The notes beneath the pieces are model-generated. The model searched no databases and was not told the origin of the DNA. It saw only the letters and a list, made by a program, of their open reading frames with translations. The position numbers and the translations under genes were made by a program. Shown here in pieces: positions 1,371-22,411 of a DNA stretch of 22,474 bases. The number at the start of each line of letters is the position of its first letter. The stretch's first letter is position 1. Origin of the DNA: Aduncisulcus paluster (lineage: Eukaryota; Fornicata); assembly GCA_024181965.1 (NCBI GenBank), contig BQXS01012522.1, positions 1-22,474 of the forward strand, read 5' to 3'.

Positions 1371-3182
1371 TCATTTCCCCTTCTTTCTTCCTCCTTTCTT
1401 TCCACGTTTCCCTCTCTTTTTAGTCTTTTCCTCTTCTTCAGAAGACTCAGATTCATCATCTTCATCCTTTAAATCATCATCAAGATCCCTTCCATCATCT
1501 CCCATCTTTTCACTCACAATACAACAAGATACAACAGATTTGTTTGGCCCATCTTCCACATCCTCATCTTCTCCTAGCCCACGTGAAGAAGAAGAAGAAC
1601 TATCTTTTCTACCAGACATAAACTCAACAACGAATCTTTCCTTTTTATCAGCAATACCTTCCCATATTTTCTTATCGCATTGACTCAAGGCGTTAAATAC
1701 ACATAAGGTACCATGGAATCCAGAAACACACACAACACCACACATTTCATCGCTCCAGGAAGCTCCAAGAACACGACCACATTCATGCATTTCACGGGTG
1801 TATAATAAATTCAATTGGTGTGACACAGAAGCTGCATCGCCATACTTGCTATCCTTAGGAACTATAGCCCATATCTTAACACTCTTATCCTCTGAGGCAG
1901 TCATTAGAATGTTTGGACATTGAGGACAAGTTGACACGGAGGTCACAGATGTCGAGTGAGCTCTTGGGAAACGAATACAGACTTCATCACTGCCTCCTGA
2001 TGTGTCTGTTGTTGACATTAACCAAGCATACACTCCTCCTTGATCGTCTCCAGCCAGAACAAGCTCTTTATCCTTGATGCCACTCTCAGTACTGCTAATG
2101 CACTCACAATCACTCTCCATTGTTCCAATTACTCTCTCTTTACCTTCATTGAAGTCACACACACCAATAGTGTTGCCACAGCCGTAAAATACACTCATTC
2201 CAGACTGTTTGTCCCAGCATATCGAATGGACACCACGAGAGATTGTGAGATCAATATCTTCTTCCTCTTCGTCCCTGCCTTTCGTCTTGGATGATGTTTT
2301 GCTGCTATCCGTAGTAACTTTATCTGAACAAGGAGACGGAATAACAGTGGCGACGCATTTATCTTCTTCTTTTTCAGCCGTTATATCCCATAGTTTTATA
2401 GAACAATCGGCACTACAGCTACACAAGAAATGAGGGAACTTCTTGTTCCATTCAATGCATGTTACAGTGTCGGTATGGGAATTGGCCTCATGGGATGGCA
2501 AAGAGGCCTTGAATTTGCTGATTTTTTTACGAATTCTTTGAAGTTTCTTTTTGTGTTGGGCTTTTTCCTCGGTGGTATAATCCTTTGTCGAGACTCCAAG
2601 TAATCCAGCTTCTTTCATTAGTCTCTCCCACTCTTCTTTTCCTACGGTCTCTTTATCAGTGAATCCACCGAGGGTCATCAGAGGACATATTTCATCCATT
2701 ACACTAAGATCCCAGATCTCAATGGATCCTCCTTTGCCGAATGTAGACACTCCGCATAGATTTTCTCCAAGAGATTTGTGAGATATCCAGGTAATAGCAG
2801 TGGGGAGGTGAGCTAATGGAAGATCGTGGTGGAGGAATGTATGGTGAGAAGTATGATCATATACCATATATGTAATATACGCACTTTGAGAATCAGACAC
2901 TCTAAGAGCACATATAGCGGTATCTGACTCTGGATTAAGAAGGAACTCGGGTTCTTCTTCTTCTGGTCCAACTGAAAGGTAAGGATCCAACTCAGGATCA
3001 GTCACAAGTCCGGTGGAGTGAAGAAGAATTGGATCGTCCTGGGATTCCGACTCTTCTTCGGGTCTTTCAGTAACTCGCCTGGAGGGATCGATAAAAGCCC
3101 TATCTCTTTGGCGGAGAGCTTGGATCAGGGCCTTTTTTGGCACCCATTTTGCACAAAAGATGAAATTACTGGACGCCTCCAT
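1371..3182 (-). CDS. PWP1: PWP1-like WD40 repeat protein (ribosome biogenesis)
   Basis: The 603-residue product matches periodic tryptophan protein 1, a nucleolar WD40 protein of large-subunit ribosome and rRNA production. The N-terminus has the family's FIFCAKWVPKKAL segment. After an acidic stretch come the signature FLHHDLPLAHLPTAITWI and GGSIEIWDLSVMDEICPLMT. WD repeats follow, with IKLWD near residues 262-266 and a later ILMTASEDKSVKIW. The C-terminus is acidic/serine-rich, then very basic (KKRGKRGKKGGRKKGK), which suits a nucleolar signal. The ATG at 3182 is the first in frame; the codon before it is TTG and should not be counted. It is longer than typical PWP1 because of low-complexity inserts between blades and the tail. 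It is transcribed divergently from the Hsp70 gene. No introns are evident. Confidence 0.9.
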   Translation of the reverse strand: MEASSNFIFCAKWVPKKALIQALRQRDRAFIDPSRRVTERPEEESESQDDPILLHSTGLVTDPELDPYLSVGPEEEEPEFLLNPESDTAICALRVSDSQSAYITYMVYDHTSHHTFLHHDLPLAHLPTAITWISHKSLGENLCGVSTFGKGGSIEIWDLSVMDEICPLMTLGGFTDKETVGKEEWERLMKEAGLLGVSTKDYTTEEKAQHKKKLQRIRKKISKFKASLPSHEANSHTDTVTCIEWNKKFPHFLCSCSADCSIKLWDITAEKEEDKCVATVIPSPCSDKVTTDSSKTSSKTKGRDEEEEDIDLTISRGVHSICWDKQSGMSVFYGCGNTIGVCDFNEGKERVIGTMESDCECISSTESGIKDKELVLAGDDQGGVYAWLMSTTDTSGGSDEVCIRFPRAHSTSVTSVSTCPQCPNILMTASEDKSVKIWAIVPKDSKYGDAASVSHQLNLLYTREMHECGRVLGASWSDEMCGVVCVSGFHGTLCVFNALSQCDKKIWEGIADKKERFVVEFMSGRKDSSSSSSRGLGEDEDVEDGPNKSVVSCCIVSEKMGDDGRDLDDDLKDEDDESESSEEEEKTKKRGKRGKKGGRKKGK

Positions 3183-3478
3183 CAAAAACGTATGATTTTG
3201 CCAAAATCATTTTAAGTCAAATAAAAAATATTTTAATCTTCTGATATATTCTAATTTTTCAATTTTTATTTTAAACACTCGTTTATTAATGGTGATAGTT
3301 GCCCCTATCATCCAATGCTGAAGGACAAACCCAAATTATTGAATACTGGAGAATAAGAAATAAATTTACAATCAAAATGGGTGAATATCATTATTTTTAA
3401 AAGATTTATCACGTGTTATAACAAAGTATCATCCTTGAAAATTGTTGATTGTTTTTAATTCGATTTTCTGTGTTTTGC
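3183..3478. promoter_or_regulatory. Divergent intergenic promoter region between PWP1-like and Hsp70 genes
   Basis: A 296-nt AT-rich gap separates the start codons of two divergently transcribed genes, so it must hold both promoters. I see no convincing TATA box or run of heat-shock elements. The 30 nt before the Hsp70 ATG are open in the Hsp70 frame but contain no ATG, and a TGA precedes them at 3446-3448. Confidence 0.5.
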
Positions 3479-5314
3479 ATGAGTGTTGGTATTGATCTCG
3501 GAACAACAAATTCCTGTATCGCCTCCTTTCTGGGCGGGGAGCCTATTGTACTCCCCTCATTAGAAGGAGGTCGTACCACCCCTTCCATCGTACTCTCCGG
3601 GGGGTTAGTTGGCCTGCCCGCCAAAAGACAAGCCATTCTAAACCCTCAAGAGACTTTTTACAGTTCAAAGCGTTTGATTGGAAGAAGATATAAAGATATT
3701 GTTAAAGAAGCTTCAACTTTGTCATATCCAGTTGTTGAAGGTAAGAATGGGGATGCTTGGATCCATTCAGCTGAGTTAGATCGTGATTTATCTCCAAGCG
3801 AAGTTGGAGGAATGATTCTCCGTAAGTTAAAGGAATCTGCTGAATCATATCTTGGTAAACCCGTTACAGATGCTGTAATCACTGTTCCTGCATATTTCAA
3901 TGATGCTCAACGCCAGGCTACCAAAGATGCTGGTGCTATTGCTGGCTTAAATGTTAAAAGAATTATTAATGAACCCACTGCTGCCTGTCTTGCTTATGGC
4001 TTTGGAAAAGAAGAGGATATGGAAACGAAACGCATTGCTGTTTTTGATTTGGGTGGTGGTACCTTCGATATCTCCATTCTTGAAGTCACTGGTGGTGTTT
4101 TTGCTGTTCTTGCTACAAATGGTGATACTTTCCTTGGTGGAGATGACTTTGACCAAGCTATTGTTAAACATTTACTCTCCATGTTCGAAGAGCACGAAGG
4201 TATTGATCTCTCAAATGATGTCGTTGCTCTCCAACGACTCAAGGAAGCTGCCGAGGCTGCTAAGATCGAGTTGTCTTCCACCTCCTCAACTGATATAAAT
4301 CTTCCTTTCCTCGCCATGGGTGGCAATCCTCCCCAACCTAAACATTTAACGACCACTCTGACTCGTAAGGATCTGGAATCTATCGTATCAACTGAAATCA
4401 AGAGAACTGAGGGACCTTGTAAGGCCTGTCTCCGTGATGCTGGTTTGACAGAGGCCGACGTGGATGAAGTTGTTCTCGTTGGTGGGATGACAAGGATGCC
4501 AGCTGTCCAGGAGCTTGTTAAGAAGATATTTAAGAAGGAACCCAGTCGTGGAGTCAATCCCGATGAAGTCGTTGCTCTTGGTGCTGCCATCCAAGGAGGA
4601 GTGCTTAGCGGAGATGTTGACAAGGTTCTTCTCTTGGACGTGACTCCTCTATCCTTGGGAATTGAGACTCTTGGAGGTGTGTTCACTCGTCTAATTCCTC
4701 GTAATACAACCATCCCTGTGAAGAGAACTCAAACATTCAGCACTGCCGTTGACAATCAAACCAAAGTCAATATCAAGGTTCTCCAAGGAGACCGTGACAT
4801 TGCCACGCATAACCAGCTTCTGGGGGAGTTTCAGCTCGTTGGCATTCCAGCTGCCCCTCGTGGTGTTCCACAGATTGATGTTACGTTTGACATTGATGCT
4901 GATGGTATTGTTAATGTGAGTGCCAGAGATCAGGCAACTGGAATTGAGCAACAGATCTCTGTCGAGGGTGCTGGAGGATTGAGTGAAGAGGAGGTAATGA
5001 AACTTATCAAGGAGGCTGAAGCCAACAAGGAACAAGATATGGTTGAAAGGAAGAGAATAGAAGTTGTGAACAATCTTGAACAGATCATTGAAAGTTGTCA
5101 GACAACAATTGCCGTTTGCAAAGATGAAAAGGGTGCAATTCTAAAGAAAAAAATCAACCAAAAGCTGTTGAAAGAGCTCGAAGATAAGGTTGCCACTGCG
5201 ATTATTATGAAAGATAACAAGGAATCGACACCTAAGCTTCTCCAAGAAGTCGGTGATGGACTTAACAAAATATTGCTTAAAGTGGGGAAAAGTCTTCATG
5301 GGGCAAAGAAATAA
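3479..5314 (+). CDS. Mitochondrial-type Hsp70 (DnaK family chaperone)
   Basis: This is an ATP-driven chaperone of the mitochondrial/DnaK branch; in mitochondria or related organelles it pulls in and folds imported proteins and helps iron-sulfur cluster assembly. The 611-residue product begins [13 protein letters not shown]. It carries the GDAWI motif (residues 91-95) typical of mitochondrial and proteobacterial Hsp70. It also has [46 protein letters not shown], the interdomain linker [19 protein letters not shown] and [18 protein letters not shown] in the substrate-binding domain. The C-terminal lid is short and ends GAKK, without the EEVD of cytosolic Hsp70 or the KDEL-type end of BiP. The ATG at 3479 is the first in frame after a stop, so no N-terminal targeting peptide is encoded here. 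A separate upstream exon cannot be excluded, but no AG acceptor lies close by. No introns are seen in the coding region. Confidence 0.95.
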
Positions 5315-5397: not shown

Positions 5398-5724
5398 ATT
5401 ATTTCATGGATTTAATTAAAAAGCATCTATTTACATCCCAATAAATCCCCCCAATGTATGAAATTATACACTATACACGCCATTCCGGCATTCATTTTCC
5501 TATCTCTGGATGTCAACAATATTATCGAATATAGATGTTTTTTAGTTCACAGATTTATACATTTATATCACTCTCATGACATGGACTTCCTTGGTTATAT
5601 TGTCAATATCGATATAATTGGAGTTTGAAACGAATTGTCCATTTTCTCCGAGTTAAGAACAATACCCATTTTTTTGAGGGGAAATTTTTATTTGTAAATT
5701 GCTGTGCAATATTATAAAATGCTT
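5398..5724 (+). repeat. Repeated 5' flank, copy 1 (before gene A)
   Basis: This segment reappears at 16790-17120 and, for its last part, at 17669-17790. It runs into the first codons of gene A. Blocks shared with copy 2 include a stretch from the CATCTATTTACATCCC block to the CTTGGTTATATTGTCAATAT block with almost no change. From TCAATATCGATATAATTGG onward it matches copy 3 more closely. A short inverted repeat (ATGAAAT/ATTTCAT, 5386-5392 and 5401-5407) lies at its left end. It fills nearly the whole 404-nt gap between the Hsp70 stop and gene A; nothing else is seen there. Confidence 0.9.
5694..5718 (+). promoter_or_regulatory. Conserved start-proximal element of gene A
   Basis: The 25 nt directly before the gene A ATG follow the pattern GTAAATTGCTGT, two variable bases, then AATATTATAAA. 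The same pattern abuts the ATG at 17113 and at 17785. Its fixed distance from the start codon suggests an initiator or transcription-start element with a very short leader, as in several anaerobic protists. This is inference. Confidence 0.45.
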
Positions 5725-8700
5725 CCAATCGATTCAAAAAATAATTTAACAACTTCTAGGGGTTCTGACAACCTTCCTGCAAGGGATGATGGGAGAGAAG
5801 ATGAAAAGTTAATGGATCCGACAGCAAATGTTGCAAATTATAGTTCTTCCGTCACTGTATGTTGCATTTCTCTGTTTTGTTTTTGGTTTCGAATTCCATC
5901 TGTTCCATGAGTTCTTACATTCCATAATGACTAAATCGTCATCATTTCATGTTTTATAGATTAAAACTGACACTATCGATGTTCAACCAATTTCTCGAGA
6001 CCGCAGTAGTCATTTTATTATTCCAATTCCTCGAGATCAACCTACTGTCATTTTTACTGAATTCAAAGGCATTAAATTCGACCATACCAATATTGTGAGA
6101 CGCAAATTTCCAAAACCAGCGTCCATGAAAGGTGCATATATTTTGCTATCGGAGAATTTCCATTCTCAGCTTATTTCCTTCAAATTCACTTCAGGGAAAG
6201 AAACGACAAAGAAATACAAATTTCCTGAATTTAAACATCATCATTGGTTCTATCTTCCGATCGATCTCGTCGATATTGATAGATTTGAGATGCTTGTAGA
6301 AAGCTCTAGACTCATGGATGTTAAAATCCCCTCGCTTGCTTTCATTCGGGAAGAAACTCTCAAAGAATCAACCGCTCGTAAATCTATTGAGCGAATATGG
6401 TCTAAAGCTACTCCTGTGGTGCCACAGTTTAAGAATGAAGGAAGTAGATATTCTGTTCCAATTTCTCGGGATACTCCATCTGTATTTAATCCTGCATTTG
6501 ACAAGGTGATTGGGAGGGATTTTTCATATTCTAAAGAATTAGAGAAATATTATAAGAGTGAAGGTGCAAAAATAATGTTTAAACGGGATTCTAGTGTTGT
6601 TTTATCTCGTCTTTCCAGCCCTTTCCAAGCACCTTGTTCCATAAAAGGTGCTTATATCTGCGTGAATAAGTATGATAGTTCACCTCAACTTCTCTTTACC
6701 TTTTCTCTGTCTGATGGTATAAAGATATTCAAGTTTGAATTCACTCCACCCAAACTTAAACCTAGACATAGTTATGAATGGCACTTCCTTCCTATTGATT
6801 TATCAAATGTTAAATCCTGTGAGATTGATGGAAAAGGTACTTGGAAAGCGAAGAAAAGTCGGGTATTTAAAATCAAATCTCTCGTTTTCATTCGAGAAGA
6901 AACCCCTGAGGAACGTACTGCTCGTGAAGTGCATGAACATCTCTGGACAGAAGCTGTATGTTTTTAGATATATTTTTAATTTTCTAACGAAACGATTCTT
7001 TGTTCACCCTAATTTTATATGATTATTATTATACTATCAAATTTTCTTTATTTTTTTCGGTAATTACCATTGTAACAAATTTAAGACAATTTTTAAACCA
7101 AAATTCATGAATCCAGGAAAGGCTGGTTTTATTCCTATTCCTCGTGATGATCCAACAATTATAATTCCTTCATTTGAATTGGTAAAGGGAAAAAATGATT
7201 CAATGAATTTAGAATCTGAGGAATATGATCAGAGTTCAGAAGCACAAAAAATGTTAAAGGGGGAAGGAAAAGTTTCCTTATCCCATCTTTCCATCCCTTT
7301 TACATCACCAAGTCCTATGAAAGGTGCTTATATTTGTGTGGATAAGAATTATAGTTCGCCTCAGCTTCTCTTCACGTTCACTGTTGATTCTGATGATAAG
7401 ACCATATCCAAGAAGTATGAATTCACAAGACCAAAAAATGAATATGAATGGCATTTCCTTTCAATTGATTTGGATAATGTCGTTTTGTGTGAGATTGAAG
7501 GGAAAGGAACATGGAAAATGAAATTTGATCGATGTTTTTGTATCCACTCTCTTGTGTTCCTCAAAAGACACATATACACAAAAGAAGTTACTTTTGTTCA
7601 TGAAGGAAGTAATTCTTCCATTCCAACGCCTAGAGATGCTCCAACTTGTGTCCCCAAAAGAGAAATATGTCACACAGAAGATATTTCGTATGTTCATGAA
7701 GGAGTCTATACTTTTGTTCATGAAGGAGGCTATTCATCTATTCCAATCCCTAGAGATGCTCAAACCATTATAAGTCCTGCTTTTGACAGGATTGTGGCGA
7801 GTAATGAAAAATATAGAGAAAGTTGTTCACATGATCGGAGTAGTGATGTCCAAAAAGTGATTAAGGGAGGGTATTGCAGAAATAATTTCACTCATATCTC
7901 CATTCCTTTCACTCATTCTACTTCCATAAAAGGTATTTATATTTGTTTACCAAATTCTAGCACTTCAAAATTTCCAGAACATCTCAACTTTACTTTCACC
8001 TCTTTTACAGGGAATTTCCAGTCCTTTAAGTTTGAATTTATTCCTTCAACAGCAAATAGATGGTATTTTCTTTCAATAGATCTCTTTGATGTTACTCTGT
8101 GTGAGATTGAAGGAGAATCTAAACAGGAAGGAGAGGAAAGTTTTGAATTTTCTATTGAATCTCTTGCTTTTGTTCGAGAAGAAACTCCTGAAGAAACCCT
8201 AAATCGGCAGAGAACTGAAAATCAACTGTCAAATATGTGGTTTGACGCTGTATGTTTGATATTTATTGTACTTTTACCTATCTATCTATTTTATCTTTTT
8301 TATTTCTTTATGTTTTATTGTTTTTTCATGTTCATTTCCAATTTGTTTAATTTTTTTAGACACCCATAATACCTGAATTTAAAGGAGAAGGAGGACCTAG
8401 ATCTTCTCCTCCAATTCCATTTGATGATCTACTTGTTATCAATCCTTCATTTGAATTGGTAAAGGGAAAGAATGATTCAATGAGTAAGGAATCTGAGAAA
8501 TATGATATGAGTTCCGAAGCACAGAAAATGCTAATAGGGGAAGATGATGGTGTCATCTTATCCCATCTTTCCATACCTTTTCCAGCACTAAGTCCTATGA
8601 AAGGTGCTTATATCTGTGTGGAAGAAGATTCCAGTTCACCCTCTCTTCTCTTCTCTTTCACTCTTTCTAATGGTGAGAAGATACCCAAGAAGTATGAATT

Positions 8701-11700
8701 CACACAACCCAAACATGACTATGAATGGCACTTCCTTCGTATTGATTTACCAAATGTTGTTTTATGTGAGGTTCGAGGGAAAGGAATGTGGGGAGAGAAA
8801 AACAGTCGTCCTTTTCAAATCAAATCCCTTATTTTCATTACAGGTGATGATATTCCTCCTCTCCCATCCGATTCTTCCAAACTTATCAAACATGACTCCT
8901 TCACTCTCACTTCCTCTGCAACCATCACTCCTCAGTGCGTCATTGGTCATGGTGGATTTGCTGAAGTTCTTCTTGTCAAGGTTGAAGGTATTCCCATTCC
9001 TTGTGTTCTGAAGAAGATGCTTCGTAAAACAGATGAAAAGGTTATGAAAGATTGTCAAAGGGAGTTTAAGGTGCAAAGAAAGTTATTTAATAACTCCAAA
9101 TGTTTCAATCGTATCCCTCGTCCTTTGTATATTCTTGATCTTCTTGATGCAGATTTACAGGGAATTTATGGATTCCTTATGGAGTTTTGTATTGGAGGTA
9201 GTGTGAGTTCATTTGCCAAGAAATGGTGTGTTGTTGATAAGTCTGAAAGTCAACTTCAAGGAGATGGAAAAGAAGGAGAGGAAGAAGAATGCTCATCTTC
9301 AGAAGAAGATAGTGATGATCACAAATATTTTGATCCAATGACATTAAACCCTGTGAAAGTGAGTGCCTTATGTGTTGGAATGATTGAATGCCTCGATGAT
9401 GTGTTCACTGCCAAACTAAAGCTTATTCACCGAGATATTAAACCTGACAACTTCCTTGTTCGTGTTGATTCCAAAGATGGAGAATGCACCGTGGTTCTCT
9501 CTGATCTTGGATTGGCACAGATCTTAGATTCCATATCATCTTCATCAACAACCAAATCAGGTTTGATTCAGCCTATTCATCTTGATACGAAAAAGGAAAC
9601 TCAAAATCAAACCCCATGCAAATGTGGAACTCTTGTGTACAACTCTTATGAAACCCTTTTAGCTGGCACTCAAACTCAGAAGAGTGATGGATATTCTCTT
9701 GGAATGTCGATTCTCGCTTTATTCATATGTGAACATCCTTTTGTTTCTTTGCCCATATTCAACGATATCTTTCGTAATGAAGGACGCTTGGGAGATGGAG
9801 CCATTAAATTTGAAATAATGAAAACGCTAATACGATTGATGGAAAATAACATGTGTCCATCTCTTCTCCGATCTCCTTTATTTAAATCATTATTAACCCT
9901 TGAAGGAGGTAAATTCCAACCTGTTCATGAATGTTTGAATGAAGTATTCACTGGACTCACCCAACTCGATGTTGACAAACGTATGAGTGTGCATAAAGCT
10001 CGTGAGAAGGTGCAAAGCATCAAACATTTACTGCCAGAGATTGGAGAAGGGTTTGAATGTCCATCTGTTGATGATATTATCAGGGAACAAAAACAGAAAC
10101 ATTTTGGATATTCTGGATCTATTATTGGTGGTCCAATGAGTTTTTCAAAAATGCAAGATAGTTCAAGATATCCTTCAGAAACACAGAGTTCAACTCGGCA
10201 GAGTTGTATTGATGGGTTACGATATCTCACCGAGAAAAATACTCGAGATATTCCTTCTTGTTTACAGGTTCCTGAGTATGATAGACGTTGTATACAATCT
10301 TCGTTTCTTCCATCTTCTAACCCGTTTCATGGTGTGTATTCGAAAGATTATGATGAGAGTGAGAAAAGTGAAAGAGATGAAGATAAGGAACAAGAAACTC
10401 GAGTCGTGCTTTCACCTCAAAGTACAGTTGAATTTCATCGGGAAGAAATTCAAAGTTCACAAGCTTCCAGTTCAACGACCCAATCTTTAATCCAGCGAAA
10501 GAAAAATATCTCTAATGTTATCAAACATGACTCCTTCACTCTCACTTCCTCTGCAACCATCACTCATCTGGATGTCATTGGTCATGGTGGATTTGGTGAA
10601 GTTCTTCTTGTCAAGGTTGAAGGTATTCCCATTCCCTGTGTTCTGAAGAAGATGCTTCGGAAAGGTGATGAAAAAGTTGTTATGTATTGTCGAGAAGAGT
10701 TTGAGATGCAACAAAAGTTGTTTAAAAAATGTTTCGAACATATTCCTCGTCCTTTGTATATTCTTGATCTTCTTGATGGAGATATGAAAGGTGTTTTTGG
10801 ATTTGTCATGGAATATTGTGCTGGAGGTAATGTGAAAGATTTTCTAAATAATTGGTGTTATCAAGCTGAATATTCATGTATTGTCAGAGAATCAAGCCTT
10901 AAAGTCACTGAATCGGGTGGTGAAGTTGTTATTTATGGTCAAGAAGATGGAGAGAATGGGGATGATGGTAATGAAGGGTCTCAGAAAAAAGAAACATCCG
11001 ATAATCCTCAAGAAGGTGATGAAAAATCAGATGAAGACCAATCAAAGTCTTCATCGAGGCAGTCATCGACAGAGGATGTCGAGATGACCTTAGAAATAGC
11101 TATTAGGATATGTGCAATGTGTGTTGCAATTTTAGAATGTTTCAATGAAATTCTCAAAGCAAATCCAAACTATTTTCATGGAAATGTCAGCCCTACAAAC
11201 TTCCTTGTTCGTGTCGATCCCACCTTAAATACTTGCACAGTTGTCCTTGATGCTAGTACTTCTCGGATCCAAATGGCAGTTCGTTCAGAATACCTTGCTG
11301 GACAATTCCCATTGTGGATCAGTATATCTTTGATTTCCTGTTGTTCAAATCTGCTGAATTCTTTGATGGGGTTGACGATCAAAAATGTGATTCTTTCTCA
11401 CTTGGGCTCACTTTATTCTCCCTTTTCTTTCTATGCAGTCCATTCGTTCATATGCAATATATTCAATGCTTTGACAATATTGAATCATTTTATAAGGAAT
11501 TAGACAAGAAACGTCGTAGTCTTTCACTTTTCCAATCGCCTGTTTATCAGAAACTCAATACAAGCGGAGATAAATACAAGCCACTTCTAACATATTTTGG
11601 AGAAATCATAAATGGGCTTATCTGTCCTAATCCTGCAGAACGTATGAGCGTGCACGAAGCGTGTGAGAGAGTTCAATCAATTAAAGAATTAAAATTACTT

Positions 11701-11928
11701 CCACCTCTTGGGGAAGGCCTTAAATTTGATATAATACAGGAGTCAACCACTGGTGGAGTGTCAGATAGATTCCTTCTTGGAGATGAAGATAGTGATCTAA
11801 GTTCATCCAGTTCGGATGAAGATATTCGCCCTGAGCGTTATTTGGCGAGGATTTATCGAGAATTGAAAGAAATGAGAGTGTATAAACCTGGCAAGGAAGA
11901 AGAAGAATATGAAGAGGAAGAGGACTAG
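5719..11928 (+). CDS. Gene A: five-module repeat protein with kinase and pseudokinase domains; frameshifted near 3' end
   Basis: Exons are 5719-5856, 5960-6955, 7086-8249 and 8360-11928; every junction is phase 0 with a GTATGT donor. Exon 1 (46 codons) is hydrophilic and Ser/Asp-rich. Exons 2 and 3 carry two modules each, and exon 4 carries a fifth module, an intact kinase (about 8880-10060), a low-complexity linker, and a second kinase-like domain (10518-11700) without catalytic motifs. The product would be about 1950 residues, ending in an acidic tail. The reading frame shifts between 11257 and 11503. Upstream codons continue frame 2 to a stop at 11503. Homology (FKSAEFFDG, then KCDSFSLG, later PAERMSVHEACERVQSIK) resumes in another frame from about 11330, as if one base were lost. 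The ATG at 5719 matches the start of gene B. No signal peptide or membrane segment is seen, so the protein is probably cytosolic. I recognise no named family beyond the kinase fold; role unknown, presumably signalling. Joining the exons and the shift is my inference. Confidence 0.8.
5857..5959 (+). other. Intron 1 of gene A (103 nt)
   Basis: The intron starts GTATGT and ends TATAG, and lies between codons (phase 0). Removal joins SSSVT to IKTDTIDV and restores one open frame into the first module. The same position is interrupted in gene B. Reading into the intron gives a stop after a short hydrophobic tail. Confidence 0.85.
6956..7085 (+). other. Intron 2 of gene A (130 nt)
   Basis: GTATGT donor after LWTEA, acceptor TTTAAG, phase 0. 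Splicing joins module 2 to TIFKPKF and then FIPIPRDDPT of module 3, which aligns with the unspliced equivalent in gene B (SVKAEFMNEA, then LPIPRDDPT). Retention would give a stop after three codons. Confidence 0.82.
7591..7727 (+). repeat. Short repeated VHEG segments inside gene A
   Basis: The sequence TGTTCATGAAGGA occurs three times (within 7591-7607, 7690-7702 and 7711-7727), coding for FVHEG, YVHEG and FVHEG. Each stands before or near a SIPxPRDAP linker. It looks like local slippage or partial duplication of the linker between modules 3 and 4. Confidence 0.75.
8250..8359 (+). other. Intron 3 of gene A (110 nt)
   Basis: GTATGT donor after MWFDA at the end of module 4; acceptor TTTTTTTAG; phase 0. 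Splicing joins TPIIPEFKG at the start of module 5. The intron is strongly T-rich. If retained it adds a hydrophobic tail of about 40 residues before a stop at about 8369. Confidence 0.85.
8880..10060 (+). other. Protein kinase domain of gene A (catalytically intact)
   Basis: The domain is a Ser/Thr-type eukaryotic protein kinase. The glycine loop reads GHGGFAEV, with the third glycine changed to alanine. The ATP-binding lysine lies in CVLKKML, the catalytic loop HRDIKPDN is at 9428-9451, the DLG magnesium motif at 9503-9511, and the alpha-F aspartate is in KSDGYSLG. The late helix has DKRMSVHKA. An acidic Ser/Glu insert follows FAKKWCVV, and the activation segment is long with a weak APE (NSYETLLAG). 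I cannot place it in a named kinase group. Confidence 0.9.
8883..8930 (+). repeat. 48-bp exact direct repeat, copy 1 (start of kinase 1)
   Basis: Coding for IKHDSFTLTSSATIT, this 48-bp block is identical to 10518-10565. Similarity continues for some 150 bp on both sides' downstream parts (the glycine loop and lysine region). Confidence 0.9.
10518..10565 (+). repeat. 48-bp exact direct repeat, copy 2 (start of pseudokinase)
   Basis: Identical to 8883-8930. It marks the boundary of a tandem duplication of the kinase-coding segment inside one exon. Confidence 0.9.
10518..11700 (+). other. Pseudokinase domain of gene A
   Basis: The N-lobe keeps GHGGFGEV and the lysine region CVLKKML, almost identical to kinase 1. 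The C-lobe is worn: HRDIKPDN is replaced by HGNVSPTN (11177-11200, catalytic Asp to Asn), and VVLSDLG by VVLDAST (Asp of DFG aligned to Ala at 11252-11254). The activation segment is much shorter than in kinase 1, and the frameshift follows within it. The last helices (PAERMSVHEACERVQSIK) are recognisable in the shifted frame. ATP binding may persist, but phosphotransfer is unlikely. Confidence 0.8.
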
Positions 11929-13094: not shown

Positions 13095-16000
13095 ATGGAC
13101 AAGAGCTTGTTATATCATTTTAGTTTATTCATACGGCCGAAATTAAATGATATTGATCAATATTCAGATCTTCAAAGGATGCAGCGTGGCTTTAAAATGA
13201 ATCCTGCTGTTGAAGACGCTTCATCAATATCATCTGGCCAATTTGAAGAAATAAGGAAACAAACTGATATTTATCAGGATCTTACATCGGATAAGAAGGA
13301 TAAAGCTCCTTTAAAGTCCCCTTTTTTCAAGCATATTTCAAGTATCGTTTATTCGTGCCTTCAAATGAAGGATGTCACAATTACAGATAAATCAATTGCT
13401 CTTATTGATAATATTTCGCGAGTGTTATGCGTTAGGAGTATCATATTTTCAGTGGTAATAGAGCGGGTTAAAAAAGAGTTACTAAAAGATTATAAAATGA
13501 TTAAATCAACTCATAATACATCAATTCTTTCGTCAAAATATTTTAAATCTCGTTCTGAAATAGCATATACCTCAGATCAATGTGTTAAACTACTTTCATC
13601 TTTTTCCTCCTTTGTTGAGTCACTTTCAAGGCCAGTATTGTTAAGCATTATTAAAACACACTCACAATTCCTCATAGACCAATCTAAATATGCTTGGGAT
13701 GAGTGTATGAAGGGCAATCCACCTCCTAGTGTTCCTAGCAAGCAATCCATCTCTAGTCCAAAAAGTGAGGAAGAAATTGATTCGTTCTCGGACCAATCGT
13801 CCCATCATTCGGGCTCTTCAACCCATGATTGTCCCATTAATGCCTCTCAGATATTCCCTGATGCTCTCCATTCCCATCCTTCCTCTCGAGTCCCCATTGT
13901 TGATGAAGAGGACGATTTGGACCCATGTTATGTCGATGAATCGCAGTCTCATACGACTCCAACTCGAACATTCTCCCTTTCTTCATCCTATCGCTCTTCC
14001 TCCCCTCTTTTCCCATCTTCCCATGATCAGTCATCACCCTCGCCCATATTTCCCTCAAATAATACTAATAATAATAACAATATTACATTACATGAACAAA
14101 CTGTAGGGCCTTCATCTCCTTCTTCATCACCTCGCTCAGATGTTTCATCCATTGATGCAGATCAGACCAGAATAGCAGTGCAGTATAAAGCTGATGGTAT
14201 CGGCAAGAACAAGAATACGACCACAAATCCACCAAGTGTATCATCTCCCACCAAAGAATTTGATGTGGGCGATGATCCTATTCCATCGATTGTTCCATCA
14301 ATGGTTCCATTGGATCCTTCACAGCCTATGGAAAAAAGTTATGTTTCCCTATCATCAATCTTGTCTGCCCTTCCTCCTTATTTAAATAGGTTTTGTGTCT
14401 CCTTTTCGACCTCTAACTCCGAGAGATGTCCCATATGTTATCTTCCCGGGGTAGAATGCTCTCACGGACGGATATCGCAGTTCATATTCCACCAATGTGG
14501 TCAGAAACCAGAAGATTATAAACTATCTCTTATGAAACAGTCATTTCCAGCCAATTCTAAACAGCGAGACTATGAAGATGAACGGCTTTCTCGTTCCCAA
14601 TTCTCTCAGCATATGCCTCCTATACCCAAAGCTAGACCCAGTGATGTAGATACCAAGCAGACCATGAGAGTGCATTCATCATCCATTTTCCCTGCTTCTG
14701 CTTCTTCTTGTTCTATTTTTAGACAATCCTCAACCTCATGCGCAGGAATAGACTCAATTCATCTCGGCACAACTGAGCACCAATCAGGGGATTTATATCT
14801 ACGTGATGAGGAGGAGGAAGAGGTTCAGTGTGGAACTATACAACAATCTCCATCTCTTCCTTGTTTTCCTACCCCTAGCAGTGTTGCGGACATGGATGGT
14901 ACTTCTTTCTCTCTCAACAAGAGCAGCAGGAATGGTGGTAATATTATTACTGTCGGAGGAGGCCAAGATCTATCGTTGTTGAGTGAAGATGATCAGCAGA
15001 GAGACAGTATTGTGCAAATAGATATGGATAGTTCAAAAAATAGAATATTTCGAGAAGAAGAAGAAGAAGAAGGGGATTCTTCGTCCCCAAAATCAACAAC
15101 ACAGCCTTTATTTGGAGCTCCTGTTGTTCACAGCATTCATCCTATATTTCCTCAATATACTGTACATTCACATAGCCATGCAACAGGAAAAGAAGAAGAG
15201 GGGCATGGTGAAGAATGTGTTGCTGTTCATAGTGCCGTTAATTCAGTTCCTCAAGGTATTATGTTCGGTTTAGGACAGTATAGTACAGTATCTTGTTCCT
15301 CAACTGTTCATGTTGACACTCCTCCTTCTTCCTCTTCTCACCATCATGACTGTTTATCCCACTCCTCTCCTTTCCTTGGTGCTGATGCTTGTACAACACC
15401 TTTACTGACTCGAGATACCACTCGTAGTTGTTCTGCATCTACCCGTATATCTCCTGGTCTTGACGATGAAGATCAACTCCAAGCTCCATTAAGTACCAGC
15501 ACATCAGTGTCAACAGGTCTTGACGAGTACAGTGACACTATCATGAACAATATCGAGGATTCTGAGGTTAGTTCCCGTGAGGACTTCCCTTACTCATGTG
15601 GTAGAGGATATGGAGGTCCCAAGAGCAGTGCATTTGAGGATGCTGCTATTGCTATGGCCTTGTCGTCTATTCCATCTCTTGAAACCCCATCAAATACTTT
15701 CTCGGTTCGATCTGAAAGCTCACTCCCACATCTTAACGTCATGCACAAGTCCATATCATCGACTGTATCCATGCATGCACAATTCTATCATATTCTTCAT
15801 GAATATTATCCTGGAACTCTCGATTATAAGTTTCCAAATACTTTGTGTGTTGATGATATCTCCGACTGGATACTTGGAACTCCACCTTCTCTGTCTTCTC
15901 TGACATCCCACGGCCATCAATATCAGTGTCGGCATCATAAATCAGATTGCCATGCACATCTATTTATAGATAGTGCCAGTGAAGGTGAGAAAGAGAGTGA

Positions 16001-16637
16001 TCAACTCTTTGAGTATAGCTGGAACGATAGTTTCTCAATATCTTATTGTGGAAAGAGAAGAGGCAGATTGTCATGTAGCCGGCCAAGTATTGTTGGAATT
16101 GATCATATTGCGAGAAAACATTCTGCCATAGGTGTTGATATCGGCTATTCTGGTGGTGGCGGTATAAGTCCTAATGATTCATTTAATCATCATCCTCCTC
16201 CTTCTCTCTCCTCCTCTTCTTGTGGCTCTAAGTTTAAGTCATCTGCTTATCAACCTTATTCTCACTCTCCTTTCTGCTTTATTCCTGCTTCTTTTTCCTC
16301 TAACATGATGAATGTGTGTGTTGGGGTGTCCGTTTTCGTTGCTTCTCGACTCTCTCTATTGCTTCGGCAAAGAGAATATACCAAATCACAGTGTTTAAGC
16401 ATGAAACGACCTGGTGAAGTGGGGTTAATCTTGCATTATGACATAATTATTGATTGTTTATACTATCTGGAGAAAGAAACTGTGAAAATATTTCCTGTTG
16501 GATCGACTCTGTTGGCTGAGCAAGCAATGATATGTTCATCACAGGCTTTTCCTTGGTGGTCGAACACTTATTTCGACCCTTACCAATACCTTAGTGCCTT
16601 AAATGATGTGAAAATCAGGGAATTGTTGACACTTTGA
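13095..16637 (+). CDS. Large serine-rich protein of unknown function with Cys/His cluster
   Basis: This is an intact 1180-codon ORF from an ATG, with no visible intron. I do not recognise it. Residues 1 to about 210 look helical (KSPFFKHISSIVYSCLQMKD, then SRVLCVRSIIFSVVIERVKK). About 215-440 and 480-900 are low-complexity, rich in Ser, Pro, His and acidic residues. In between, C445-x2-C448, C455-x-H457 and H466-x-C468 could bind zinc (CPICYLPGVECSHG). The last part is ordered again (YHILHEYYPGTLDYKFP near 900; VFVASRLSLLLRQREYTKSQ and CLYYLEKETVKIFPVGS near the end). The many hydroxyl and acidic residues suggest a phosphorylated regulatory or scaffold protein. The length and open frame support a real gene; the function is not known. 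Confidence 0.75.
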   Translation: MDKSLLYHFSLFIRPKLNDIDQYSDLQRMQRGFKMNPAVEDASSISSGQFEEIRKQTDIYQDLTSDKKDKAPLKSPFFKHISSIVYSCLQMKDVTITDKSIALIDNISRVLCVRSIIFSVVIERVKKELLKDYKMIKSTHNTSILSSKYFKSRSEIAYTSDQCVKLLSSFSSFVESLSRPVLLSIIKTHSQFLIDQSKYAWDECMKGNPPPSVPSKQSISSPKSEEEIDSFSDQSSHHSGSSTHDCPINASQIFPDALHSHPSSRVPIVDEEDDLDPCYVDESQSHTTPTRTFSLSSSYRSSSPLFPSSHDQSSPSPIFPSNNTNNNNNITLHEQTVGPSSPSSSPRSDVSSIDADQTRIAVQYKADGIGKNKNTTTNPPSVSSPTKEFDVGDDPIPSIVPSMVPLDPSQPMEKSYVSLSSILSALPPYLNRFCVSFSTSNSERCPICYLPGVECSHGRISQFIFHQCGQKPEDYKLSLMKQSFPANSKQRDYEDERLSRSQFSQHMPPIPKARPSDVDTKQTMRVHSSSIFPASASSCSIFRQSSTSCAGIDSIHLGTTEHQSGDLYLRDEEEEEVQCGTIQQSPSLPCFPTPSSVADMDGTSFSLNKSSRNGGNIITVGGGQDLSLLSEDDQQRDSIVQIDMDSSKNRIFREEEEEEGDSSSPKSTTQPLFGAPVVHSIHPIFPQYTVHSHSHATGKEEEGHGEECVAVHSAVNSVPQGIMFGLGQYSTVSCSSTVHVDTPPSSSSHHHDCLSHSSPFLGADACTTPLLTRDTTRSCSASTRISPGLDDEDQLQAPLSTSTSVSTGLDEYSDTIMNNIEDSEVSSREDFPYSCGRGYGGPKSSAFEDAAIAMALSSIPSLETPSNTFSVRSESSLPHLNVMHKSISSTVSMHAQFYHILHEYYPGTLDYKFPNTLCVDDISDWILGTPPSLSSLTSHGHQYQCRHHKSDCHAHLFIDSASEGEKESDQLFEYSWNDSFSISYCGKRRGRLSCSRPSIVGIDHIARKHSAIGVDIGYSGGGGISPNDSFNHHPPPSLSSSSCGSKFKSSAYQPYSHSPFCFIPASFSSNMMNVCVGVSVFVASRLSLLLRQREYTKSQCLSMKRPGEVGLILHYDIIIDCLYYLEKETVKIFPVGSTLLAEQAMICSSQAFPWWSNTYFDPYQYLSALNDVKIRELLTL

Positions 16638-17790: not shown

Positions 17791-19722
17791 CCAGGTAAAG
17801 CAAAAGAAGCACCAACAACTTCTAGTGTTTCCGATGATGAACCCTCCAAAGAATCGTCATCAGATTCAAGTTTAAGGTTTAATAATTGCAGTTCTGAAGA
17901 ATTGGAGGAACTGGATAGAAGTTTCTTTGATCTTTCAACTGTGTTATCCCTTATTTCGACTCCTGTATGTCCGTATCTTTTTCTTTCGTTAAATTTATTC
18001 AAAAATGTTTTTTCATTCTTATTTCTCATGTAAAATCAAATATATATTCAACTTTGTTTGTATTCATCGAATAATCTGTGATAGATTGAATCGATAAAGG
18101 CTATGGGAGTTGCCCAACAAGAGACTTCTCATGTTTCAATCCCTCGAGATGATCCCACAATGGTGTTTGCTGAATTGAAGGACATTCCATTTAAAACGAT
18201 CAAAGTTGAGACTGTGAGAAATGAAGGGGAGGATTTAAAACAAACTAGAATATTGATTGAGTCGAAACAATATTTCCCAAAATTATCCTCTACTATCGGC
18301 GCCTATATTTCGATTTATGGAAGTGAAATCGCTCCTAGTCTTATTTTCATTTTTACCTCTTCTGGAATGATAACAACCAAGAAATATGAGTTTCCTGAAT
18401 ACGAAACTTGTTTTTGGCAGTATATTCCACTTGATCTTCCCGATATTGATAGTTTTAAGATGATTATTGAGGATCCAAAACATAAAGATATTGGAATTTC
18501 CTCCCTTGCTTTCGTTCGAGAAGAAACTCCCGAAGAATCAACTATCCGTAAATCCAGAGATGTAGCTCTTGAGAAACTATGGCATGAATCTACATCTGTG
18601 AAGGCAGAGTTTATGAATGAAGCAAATGATTATTCTCTTCCTATTCCTCGTGATGATCCAACAATTATTGATCCTGCATTTGAGACTGTGAAAGCAGTGA
18701 ATTTGGTATATAGCACGGAAATGAAGGCTAAGGGGGTACATAATGAAGGCTATGATCAGAGTTTAAGAGCTCAAGACATGTTAAAAGGTGAAAGGCATGT
18801 ATTTTTGTCCCATCTTTCCATACCTTTTCCAGCACCAAGTTTCTTGAAAGGTGCTTATATCTGTATAAGTAAGCGTGGGAGTTCACCATTTCTTCTCTTC
18901 ACTTTCACTGATTGTGATGGCATGAAGATATCCAAAAAGTATGAATTCACAAACCCTAAGTTTTGGCATGAATGGCACTTCCTTCCAATTGATCTGGATA
19001 ATGTTATATTGTGTGAAATTGAAGGTAAAGGACAGTGGGAAGGAAAGAAAAGTCGGATTTTTGTTATCGAATCCTTGGCATTTATTCGAGAAGAAACGCT
19101 TGAAGAATCACTTGTTCGTGAAGCAAGAGAAATTCTCTGGTCTGAAGCCCTAATTGTGAATTCTGAGTTTGTTAAAGAAGGAGATAGAAAATCTAAAGGT
19201 AGAGATTCAATTCCCATTCCACGTGATGATCCAAGGATTATTCTTCCTTCATTCTCTTTGGTTAAGGGGAAACGTGACGTGTATAGTAAGGAATCTAAAG
19301 AGTATGATGTGAGTTTAAAGGTACAAAAAATGTTGAAAGGGGAAGATTATGTATGGTTATCCCATCTTTCTATCCCTTTTCCATCCCCTAGTCCTATAAA
19401 GGGTGCTTATATCTGTGTAGAAGAGAACACTAGTTCACCTCTTCTTCTCTTCACTTTTACTCTTTCTGATGGTACAAAGATATCCAAGAAATATGAATTC
19501 ACTGAACCTAAACATGAATATGAATGGCACTTCCTTCCTATCGATTTGGAGGATGTTGTATTATGTGAGATTGATGGAAATGGAACGTTGCGAGAAAGAA
19601 AATGCAGGGATTTCTTCATATACTCTCTTGTATTTCTGCTGACAGATGAATTTATTGCAACAAAACGGTTATGTCAACTACCTTGGGAACAAACTGGAGA
19701 TGATAATCAAGAAAAAAGATGA
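17785..19722 (+). CDS. Gene B: three-module repeat protein without kinase, paralogue of gene A
   Basis: Exons are 17785-17964 and 18085-19722 (phase 0), giving 605 residues. Exon 1 (60 codons) is Ser/Asp/Glu-rich, ending with an amphipathic segment (EELEELDRSFFDLSTVL). Exon 2 has three modules at about 18131-18640, 18640-19150 and 19205-19640, with linkers VSIPRDDPT, LPIPRDDPTII and IPIPRDDPRII. Unlike gene A, no introns divide the modules. The third module stops after YSLVFL, where A and C would carry on to REETPEE or to the kinase, and is followed by an unrelated 26-residue polar tail (ATKRLCQLPWEQTGDDNQEK). The protein may be a kinase-less partner of A and C or a 3'-truncated copy. No signal peptide is visible. 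The ATG is set by the repeated flank. Confidence 0.82.
17965..18084 (+). other. Intron of gene B (120 nt)
   Basis: GTATGT donor, GATAG acceptor, phase 0. Splicing joins LSLISTP to IESIKAMGVA and gives one open frame into the first module, at the position of intron 1 in gene A. Reading into the intron meets a stop at 18031-18033. Confidence 0.85.
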
Positions 19723-20431: not shown

Positions 20432-22411
20432 CTAAGAATCAAATTCATCTGTGGATGGAATTATGGAATGTGAACCTTTCGTTTCTCCTTTATCATCTTG
20501 ATGTAACATATAAGAAGGAATATCTCTGTTATCCTTTTCAGTGCTTTGAAGTTTTGAAGACATTGATTGAGTTTCATGTTCCTTATCTCTTCCACTCTGT
20601 TCTTCACTTTCTTTTTCACTCTCATCATAAACTCTATCATCAATAATATCATGTGATTTAATTGTAGATTCTTGTACTTCTGAATCACTCATTGGACCAC
20701 CAATAATAGTTCCAGAATCTCCAAAATGTTTCTGTTTTTGTTCTTTGATAATATCATCAATGGATGGACATTTAAACCCTTCTCCAATATCTGGCAGTAA
20801 ATGCTTGAGGCTTTGCACTTTCTCACGAGCTTCATGTACACTCATACGTTTGTCAACATCGAGTTGGGTGAGTCCTGTGAATATTTCATTCAAACATGAA
20901 TGAACAGGTTTATATTTCCCATCTTCAATGGTTCGTAATGTTTTGAAGAGATCAGAAGAACATAATTTGGGAACTCTATTCTTTTCCATCAAACTCAGCA
21001 TGGTATGCATGATATCATAACTATTAACAACACCTCGAAATACAGGCAGGGATACGAAGGGATCAGCGCATTGGAACAAGGCAAGAATCGACATTCCAAG
21101 AGAATACCCATCACTCTTCTGAGATTGAGTTCCAGCTAAAAGTGTTTCATAAGAATTGTACACAAGAGTTCCACATTTGGAGGCTTTTTGTTTCGAGGTT
21201 TCCTTCCTTTTTTCAAACTCAATGGGATGAAATGAACCTGATTTGGTGGTTGTTGAAGATGATATGGAATCTAAGATCTGGACCAATCCAAGATCAGAGA
21301 GAACAACAGTGCATTCTCCATCTTTGGGATCAACACGAACAAGGAAGTTGTCAGGTTTAATATCTCGATGAGTAAGTTTTGGTTTGGCAATGAACACATC
21401 ATCAAGACATTCAATCATTCCAACACATAAGGCACTCATTTTCAAAGGGTTCAATGTCATGGGATCAAAATGTTTGTGATCATCACTATCTTCTTCTGAA
21501 GACGAAAAGGAATCGGATAGATCTTCTTCTTCTTTTCCTGCACTGTCTGAAGAAGATTTAGAAAGTTCTTCTTCCTCTTCTTCCCCTTGACTTTCAGACT
21601 TCTCAACAACACACCATTTCTTGGCAAATGAACTCACACTGCCTCCAATACAAAACTCCATAAGGAATCCATAAACTCCCTTCAAATCTGCATCAAGAAG
21701 ATCAAGAATATACAAAGGACGAGGGATACGATTGAAACATTTGGGGTTATTAAATAACTTTCTTTGCACCTTAAACTCCTTGCGACATGTCTTGACAACA
21801 TTTTCATCACCTTTCCGAAGCATCTTCTTCAGAACACAAGGAATGGGAATACCTTCAACTTCAACAAGAAGAACTTCACCAAATCCACCATGACCAATGA
21901 TGCACTGAGGAGTGATGGTTGCAGAGGAAGTGAGAGAATCACGTTTAAGATCTGATCGAATATCTCCCTGGATGAATATCAGAGATTTTATCCGAAAACG
22001 TCGTTCATTCTTCTCCCACGACATCCCTTTCCCTTCAATCTTGCATCGAACAACATTTGTCAAATCAATAGGAAGGAAGTGCAATTCATACCAATATTCA
22101 TATCTCGAAAATTCATACTTCTTGGGTATCTTCTTACCATTAGAAAGAGTGAAAGTGAAAAGGAGAGAAGATGAACTATAATTCTTATTCACACAGATAT
22201 ATGCACCTTTTATGGAGGTGGGGACCGAAAAAGGGATGGAGAGATGTGATAAGGATAACCATACATTACTTTCTCGTTTTAACATTCTTTCGGCTCTTAA
22301 ACTCTCATCATATTCCTTGGATTCTCGACTTTTCGAACTGTCTTTCGCCTTTACCGATTTGAATAATGGATTTACCACAATCATTCCTTTTAATTCCGAT
22401 TTTAAAACCGA
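20432..22411 (-). CDS. Gene C: module plus protein kinase, last exon, 5' part beyond window
   Basis: One exon of 660 codons including the stop is in view. It starts after an acceptor TTTTTAG at 22412 and reads SVLKSELKGMIVVNPLFKSV, which aligns with the start of gene A exon 4 (TPIIPEFKG, then LLVINPSFELVK). An ATG at 22384 is internal to this and is probably not the true start. One module (about 21960-22380) leads into an intact kinase: GHGGFGEV with all three glycines, CVLKKML, HRDIKPDN at 21347-21370, SDLG and KSDGYSLG. The acidic Ser insert is longer than in A. The protein ends in a Glu/Lys-rich tail corresponding to the linker before the pseudokinase of A, so C lacks the second kinase unit. 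It is almost identical to kinase 1 of A over long stretches. Upstream exons with further modules are expected to the right. Confidence 0.88.
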   Translation of the reverse strand, partial: SVLKSELKGMIVVNPLFKSVKAKDSSKSRESKEYDESLRAERMLKRESNVWLSLSHLSIPFSVPTSIKGAYICVNKNYSSSSLLFTFTLSNGKKIPKKYEFSRYEYWYELHFLPIDLTNVVRCKIEGKGMSWEKNERRFRIKSLIFIQGDIRSDLKRDSLTSSATITPQCIIGHGGFGEVLLVEVEGIPIPCVLKKMLRKGDENVVKTCRKEFKVQRKLFNNPKCFNRIPRPLYILDLLDADLKGVYGFLMEFCIGGSVSSFAKKWCVVEKSESQGEEEEEELSKSSSDSAGKEEEDLSDSFSSSEEDSDDHKHFDPMTLNPLKMSALCVGMIECLDDVFIAKPKLTHRDIKPDNFLVRVDPKDGECTVVLSDLGLVQILDSISSSTTTKSGSFHPIEFEKRKETSKQKASKCGTLVYNSYETLLAGTQSQKSDGYSLGMSILALFQCADPFVSLPVFRGVVNSYDIMHTMLSLMEKNRVPKLCSSDLFKTLRTIEDGKYKPVHSCLNEIFTGLTQLDVDKRMSVHEAREKVQSLKHLLPDIGEGFKCPSIDDIIKEQKQKHFGDSGTIIGGPMSDSEVQESTIKSHDIIDDRVYDESEKESEEQSGRDKEHETQSMSSKLQSTEKDNRDIPSYMLHQDDKGETKGSHSIIPSTDEFDS

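Follow-up and report, generated by a model that had tools for sequence, protein, structure and literature searches.

Gene A, on the 22,474-nucleotide contig BQXS01012522.1 of Aduncisulcus paluster (the window, by which we mean this whole stretch of DNA), encodes five tandem modules followed by two protein kinase domains, the second of which is degenerate. The modules combine a conserved framework with a set of positions that differ in nearly every copy, and they recur in many other predicted proteins of the species. On balance we lean towards the reading that gene A belongs to a much expanded, so far species-only family of cytosolic tandem jelly-roll proteins, whose variable ends bind different ligands and whose kinase reads out the binding. 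According to the accessible part of its genome report (PMC9933649), A. paluster is a free-living fornicate flagellate with a draft genome of 29.4 Mb in 25,863 contigs, with 11,743 introns, assembled from short (150-base) reads. Our genome-level counts are lower bounds, taken from a searched set (G000) of 7.09 Mb in 397 contigs.

Gene A starts at the ATG at 5719, and excision of three introns (5857-5959, 6956-7085 and 8250-8359) leaves a single frame that extends to 11503. Each intron begins GTATGT and lies between codons; the acceptors were picked by eye, from the genomic sequence alone. All five modules claimed in a preliminary description of this DNA could be located (M1-M5, Table 1). Introns 2 and 3 fall precisely at the M2/M3 and M4/M5 borders, where the sequence before the intron ends W-x-E/D-A and that after it opens the module that follows; no intron separates M1 from M2 or M3 from M4. 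The layout of modules and kinase is independently supported, since two other loci show such arrays without splicing: in L047 an unspliced open frame of 1887 residues holds eight modules plus a kinase, and in L048 one of 1505 residues holds eight modules with no kinase. Two more family members lie in the window, as had been reported, namely gene C with three modules and gene B with one module and a kinase. All 36 pairs among the nine modules of the window score 13.7-94.9 standard deviations above shuffled sequence (31-71% identity over 57-178 aligned residues), which rules out chance repetition and bears out the claim that the copies share motifs. The motifs quoted as strongly conserved are consensus-like and not invariant, EWHFLPIDL being EWHFLSIDL in M3 and EWHFLRIDL in M5. 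M1 is closest to C1, and the top-scoring partner of M2 is C2 (56% identity), so that the two genes follow a common plan at the N-terminus. Two module subtypes, named A and B here, often alternate.

A Foldseek structure comparison, which the preliminary description had named beforehand as a check, returned a ligand-binding-type beta-sandwich: the modules, described as beta-rich, are predicted to form a galactose-binding-like jelly roll. The tied best fold matches include APC10/DOC, muskelin, HERC2 DOC and IFT25, and CBM32 ranks with them. Cupins and seed storage proteins, the first Foldseek matches by E-value, were set aside, as their template-modelling scores were 0.1-0.14 and the alignments were forced over both modules; many generic beta-sandwich proteins were matched in a viral structure library. 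By sequence, searches of Pfam, NCBIfam and PHROGs gave weak scattered matches only (best PHROG E 0.0057, function unassigned), and no PDB sequence relative was better than E 1. The predicted fold is that of both the F5/8 type C (discoidin)/CBM32 and the APC10/DOC groups, whereas the Pfam profiles of the former gave no match at E ≤ 10 in 58 members and none in the gene A-C pieces, and that of the latter none in either set. PITH, a candidate because of the thioredoxin domains carried by P0045 and P0079, gave no Pfam match and is absent among the 50 fold rows listed; a Pfam scan of six gene A-C pieces revealed no NACHT or NB-ARC NTPase. The term 'undescribed', as first applied to the module, therefore stands for its sequence but not for its fold, which is widespread. 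No description of the module family was found in literature titles and abstract openings.

The variability profile was built from modules with DNA available (55 type B, 47 type A). The variation clusters ahead of strand 1 and in the segments that connect strands 2-3, 4-5 and 6-7, and those connecting strands 1-2, 3-4 and 5-6 are better conserved. Judged from strand order, the variable loops would lie together at one end of an antiparallel jelly roll. Among the 15 most variable columns of each subtype, 11 and 12 fall within these loops (P = 2e-4 and 1e-5); six of the remaining seven are in strands and one is in an other-end loop. We kept 12 of the 15 positions for type B (dropping 287, 309 and 321) and 13 for type A (dropping 86 and 143). 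Across 191 type-B and 158 type-A modules each chosen position holds 15-20 kinds of residue, except one type-A column filled in eight sequences; type-A position 58 varies far less in this larger set, at 1.79 bits versus 3.59 in the DNA set. Mean pair identity is 0.77 in the framework versus 0.14 at the variable positions in type B, and 0.74 versus 0.19 in type A. Leaving aside the modules with no scorable vector of variable residues (18 of type B, 20 of type A), 173 of 173 type-B and 135 of 138 type-A vectors are distinct, and in type B the identity of two modules at the variable positions hardly follows that of their frameworks (r 0.16).

Hypervariability was upheld in 164 type-B modules outside the loci used to choose the positions. 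Within this independent set, the 43 module pairs whose frameworks are ≥90% identical agree on average at a fraction of 0.28 of the variable positions (at most 0.75), and pairs with less similar frameworks at 0.12-0.16. Kinase-fused and kinase-free type-B modules behave alike (52/52 and 120/120 scorable vectors distinct). The variable positions are rich in Trp, Asp, Tyr and Glu and poor in aliphatic residues (Leu, Ile, Val). As the 60 most variable kinase columns, our control, are also rich in Asp and Glu, and poor in Trp and Tyr, only Trp and Tyr (plus Cys in type B) distinguish the modules.

The layout of gene A is, judged by sequence, one case of a species-wide family and not unique. At least one module occurs in 203 of 251 fetched proteins, many deposited as partial and on short contigs. 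The commonest architecture is A-B alone (85/251); modules and kinase occur together in 60, of which 31 are A-B-kinase. A single-module query gave at least 153 module matches in G000, with 150 of 308 candidates scored. Module pairs also stand alongside thioredoxin (P0045, P0079), nitroreductase, an MSP-type domain then part of a kinase, or a long coiled-coil-like region (P0054, P0025 and P0026 being the other such proteins); some of these may be gene-prediction merges. All 44 matches at E ≤ 1 in single-module searches were from A. paluster (43 deposited proteins and one same-strain EukProt entry), as were the 120 listed of 196 matches to a three-module protein and all 103 matches to the kinase, one being the window's own frame; these searches were limited in length and needed shared five-residue words (the single-module search scored the 7996 top word-sharing candidates), so that absence elsewhere is not proven.

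The frame containing both gene A kinases matches Pfam Pkinase at 2.7e-17, the best stretch lying in kinase 1. Against this profile kinase 1 scores 63.5 bits and the gene B kinase 49 bits (cut-off 31.7), with the catalytic Lys, Glu, HRD and DFG-type motif in place; we take the HRDIKPDN catalytic loop of both to be the Ser/Thr and not the tyrosine-kinase form. The description of modules joined to a kinase and a pseudokinase thus agrees with the catalytic motifs of kinase 1 and the degeneracy of the second domain. The frame of kinase 2 shifts between about 11251 and 11350 and is then open to 11928; a GT-AG stretch of 44 bases (counted by eye) would restore it, with a donor unlike the GTATGT of the other three introns. 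From its HGN and DAS motifs and the frame break, kinase 2 is best called a pseudokinase, and it is probably either regulatory or a decaying copy. Compared with the gene B kinase, the N-terminal part of kinase 2 (window 10538-10870) shows 71% identity and its later parts (10967-11715) 38-40%, a contrast that suggests local sequence exchange with an intact kinase. The same kinase class follows leucine-rich repeat (LRR), Cys-rich and transmembrane regions in A. paluster P0182 and P0188. It also forms the C-terminus of a 2945-residue open frame at L049 (207-9041, minus strand), where the approximately 2540 residues ahead of it have no Pfam match at E ≤ 0.01. Two further kinase-family predictions, P0233 and P0218, have additional domains in precomputed Pfam lists, which we take to be reverse transcriptase or integrase/chromo domains; these proteins are perhaps merges with adjacent retroelements.

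Hydropathy reveals no transmembrane segment in genes A, B and C, and visual inspection of N-termini showed no signal peptide, in line with what had been noticed at first. Gene A is at its most hydrophobic within kinase 2, where a 19-residue stretch averages 1.89, compared with 2.34-2.40 for the transmembrane segments of two sister kinases. Among 60 fetched Met-starting proteins of 340-400 residues, two (P0111 and P0071) have a 19-residue stretch above 1.6. A module (P0137) and a kinase (P0238) come from the EukProt set of the same strain, labelled Carplike_NY0171 and presumably transcriptome-derived.

The most economical account is that these proteins would serve recognition in the cytosol, pairing a constant frame with a binding edge that varies, and that some of them would signal through a kinase. 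The conserved sandwich would carry on one end a set of loops whose residues differ in almost every copy. This end would be the putative ligand-binding edge, different copies taking different, perhaps foreign or variable, ligands, and in kinase-fused members binding to the tandem modules would be read out by, and may control, the C-terminal kinase (kinase 1 in gene A). The sensor array feeding a kinase, first proposed from layout, is still something that we infer; it is now better supported than by layout alone, because the module edge is hypervariable and the same kinase class stands behind LRR and transmembrane regions. A bolder version is possible, if doubtful: about 200 or more of these hypervariable proteins would form a recognition repertoire in the cytosol, with an innate-immune or self/non-self role and unrelated to NLRs and immunoglobulins. 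This repertoire would have evolved in this one metamonad from a galactose-binding-like jelly roll, would signal partly via kinases shared with LRR receptor kinases and would have diversified partly by exchange of loop segments between gene copies.

Several observations weigh against recognition by a variable edge. The loops were assigned to one end without coordinates, with boundaries drawn when the variability profile was already known. In type A, identity at the variable positions is moderately correlated with that of the framework (r 0.44), and the enrichment of Asp and Glu is shared with the kinase control. Kinases are absent from 143 of the 203 module proteins, in some cases because the protein is a fragment. 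Ratios of nonsynonymous to synonymous change (dN/dS) in the variable-end loops are near 1 and not far above it, and single-site tests with an uncorrected threshold of P < 0.05 find dN > dS at 5 of 200 sites, the chance level, two of the five being in strands.

The main rival is that the modules are adaptors or scaffolds binding the cell's own proteins, their loops diversified to select clients or substrates for a shared kinase. APC10/DOC, muskelin, HERC2 DOC and IFT25, which share the predicted fold although the A. paluster modules match no Pfam profile, act within protein complexes. Together with the lack of transmembrane segments in genes A-C and the other domains, such as thioredoxin, on some members, this speaks for an adaptor. 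Shared clients, however, predict shared interfaces, and no two of the 173 scorable type-B modules have the same variable set; we hold the adaptor explanation to be rather doubtful. To our knowledge, APC10/DOC1-type intracellular domains have neither kinase fusions nor a hypervariable edge.

It is also conceivable that the expansion is neutral or selfish and that the exposed loops of a duplicated family are merely unconstrained. In pairwise comparisons with a proportion of synonymous differences (pS) below 0.45 (1076 of 1485 type-B and 620 of 1081 type-A pairs), dN/dS for types B and A was 0.69 and 1.06 in the variable-end loops, 0.30 and 0.42 in the other-end loops, and 0.36 and 0.31 in the strands; tree-based values were 0.84 and 1.16, 0.40 and 0.59, and 0.40 and 0.41, respectively. 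Constraint was significant at 26 of 56 and 26 of 55 strand sites, and whole-module values were 0.24-0.55 in six module pairs of the window. Type-B pS was 0.24 in strands and 0.40 in variable-end loops, so rates are not uniform. Loop ratios of about 0.7-1.2, the chance-level site tests and the many partial members on short contigs would all suit drift. Neutral codons, by contrast, would not give positions rich in Trp and Tyr and poor in Leu, Ile and Val; Trp and Tyr are depleted in the variable kinase columns, and frames are mostly intact, with stop codons in eight of the listed rows among the 153 module matches. The selection tests leave room for drift, which we nevertheless consider improbable because of the aromatic composition and the conserved opposite end.

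A third explanation, that the modules act inside the cell as lectins that bind glycans from ingested bacteria or the cell's own, with the kinase as a metabolic or phagosomal regulator, is very unlikely: Trp and Tyr suit sugar stacking and occur at the variable positions, CBM32 modules rank among the best fold matches and the culture contained food bacteria, according to the accessible part of its description (PMC9933649), but no secretion signal was seen, no CBM32 or F5/8 type C profile matched at E ≤ 10 in 58 members, and fold alone is no proof of sugar binding.

As to how a variable recognition edge might have arisen, the two halves of the variable set, six positions each, were compared among the 155 type-B modules with complete vectors. 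In 26 pairs one half matches at 5 or 6 positions (mean 5.5, maximum 11 such pairs in 50 column shuffles, which ignore relatedness), and in 16 of these the other half agrees at no more than 2 of 6. In these 16 the residues of the first two loops are common and those of the last two different, or the reverse; for example, P0010 has the first half of P0222, and P0222 the second half of P0212. Two such pairs with suitable DNA have 5 and 6 differences in a 72-base spacer, and hence are not identical tracts. The pattern is no more than suggestive of an exchange of loop segments between module copies, as short-read assembly joining paralogues could mimic it. A diversity-generating retroelement is not supported as the source, because Trp and Glu are frequent at the variable positions, and neither would result if only the adenines of AAY codons mutated.

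We know of described systems that are alike in part. DDR1 and DDR2 have one discoidin domain, a transmembrane segment and a tyrosine kinase. They share with this family a galactose-binding-like domain N-terminal to a protein kinase, whereas the A. paluster proteins have up to eight tandem modules (L047), hypervariable loops and no detectable sequence relation; genes A-C moreover lack a transmembrane segment, and the HRDIKPDN loop stands in place of a tyrosine-kinase loop. LRR receptor-like kinases are paralleled by P0182 and P0188, but genes A and B have jelly-roll modules ahead of the kinase and no transmembrane segment. The het-d/het-e NLRs of Podospora anserina, as far as the accessible part of one report describes them (PMC12222747), are intracellular and combine near-constant WD40 repeats with hypervariable sites at a predicted interaction surface. 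The likeness is one of working principle only: the A. paluster modules have another fold and a kinase output, with no NACHT match in the gene A-C pieces, and diversifying selection is unproven for them.

The remaining features of the window are as follows. Further modules of gene B probably lie upstream, beyond the contig, because its first ATG is 90 bases from the contig end, right after an apparent intron end. Neighbouring genes are an Hsp70 of the mitochondrial/DnaK type (3449-5314, plus strand; top PDB match mitochondrial Stress-70, E 1.5e-205), presumably located in a mitochondrion-related organelle; a WD40 repeat protein (1371-3185, minus strand; Pfam WD40 2.5e-12) that we take to be PWP1-like; a partial AAA ATPase interrupted by the contig end (3-1232, minus strand; Pfam AAA 3.1e-32), presumably NSF-like; and a Ser-rich open frame of 1180 residues (13095-16637, plus strand) with nothing above the Pfam cut-off (best zf-P11, E 0.012).

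Table 1. Positions of genes A, B and C and their parts in the window
Feature	Position	Strand	Remarks
Gene A exon 1	5719..5856	+	46 residues, no module; ATG 5719, donor GTATGT 5857
Gene A exon 2 (M1 + M2)	5960..6955	+	frame open once spliced
Module M1	6008..6409	+	N-terminal subtype; partner C1 (48% identity)
Module M2	6410..6955	+	module end = exon end
Module M3	7086..7583	+	module start = exon start, exactly
Gene A linker M3-M4	7584..7721	+	partial copy of module start (FVHEG...IPTPRDAP), from translation
Module M4, type A	7722..8249	+	module end = exon end
Module M5, type B	8360..8860	+	module start = exon start, exactly
Gene A kinase 1	8879..10054	+	catalytic Lys and Glu, HRDIKPDN and DLG retained; Ala in place of one loop glycine
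Gene A kinase 2, degenerate	10514..11928	+	HRD to HGN, DLG to DAS; N-lobe motifs retained
Gene C	18103..19722	+	three modules, no kinase; deposited as ADUPG1_012716 (100% identical, 66 more N-terminal residues)
Gene C module C1	18130-18591	+	
Gene C module C2	18592-19149	+	
Gene C module C3	19150-19692	+	
Gene B	20432..22384	-	one module (21950-22384), one intact kinase (20780-21946)

At its most modest, the finding is a new domain family, invisible to Pfam, in about 200 predicted proteins, together with a kinase class that is paired with several kinds of partner region. Plants, animals and fungi possess large intracellular recognition repertoires (NLRs), and the family described here looks like an array of sensors inside the cell that is of the flagellate's own making. 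If so, a free-living metamonad would have invented independently, on another fold, a constant framework with a hypervariable edge, and these genes would provide a set with which to ask how recognition of microbes, of viruses or of one another works among single-celled eukaryotes.
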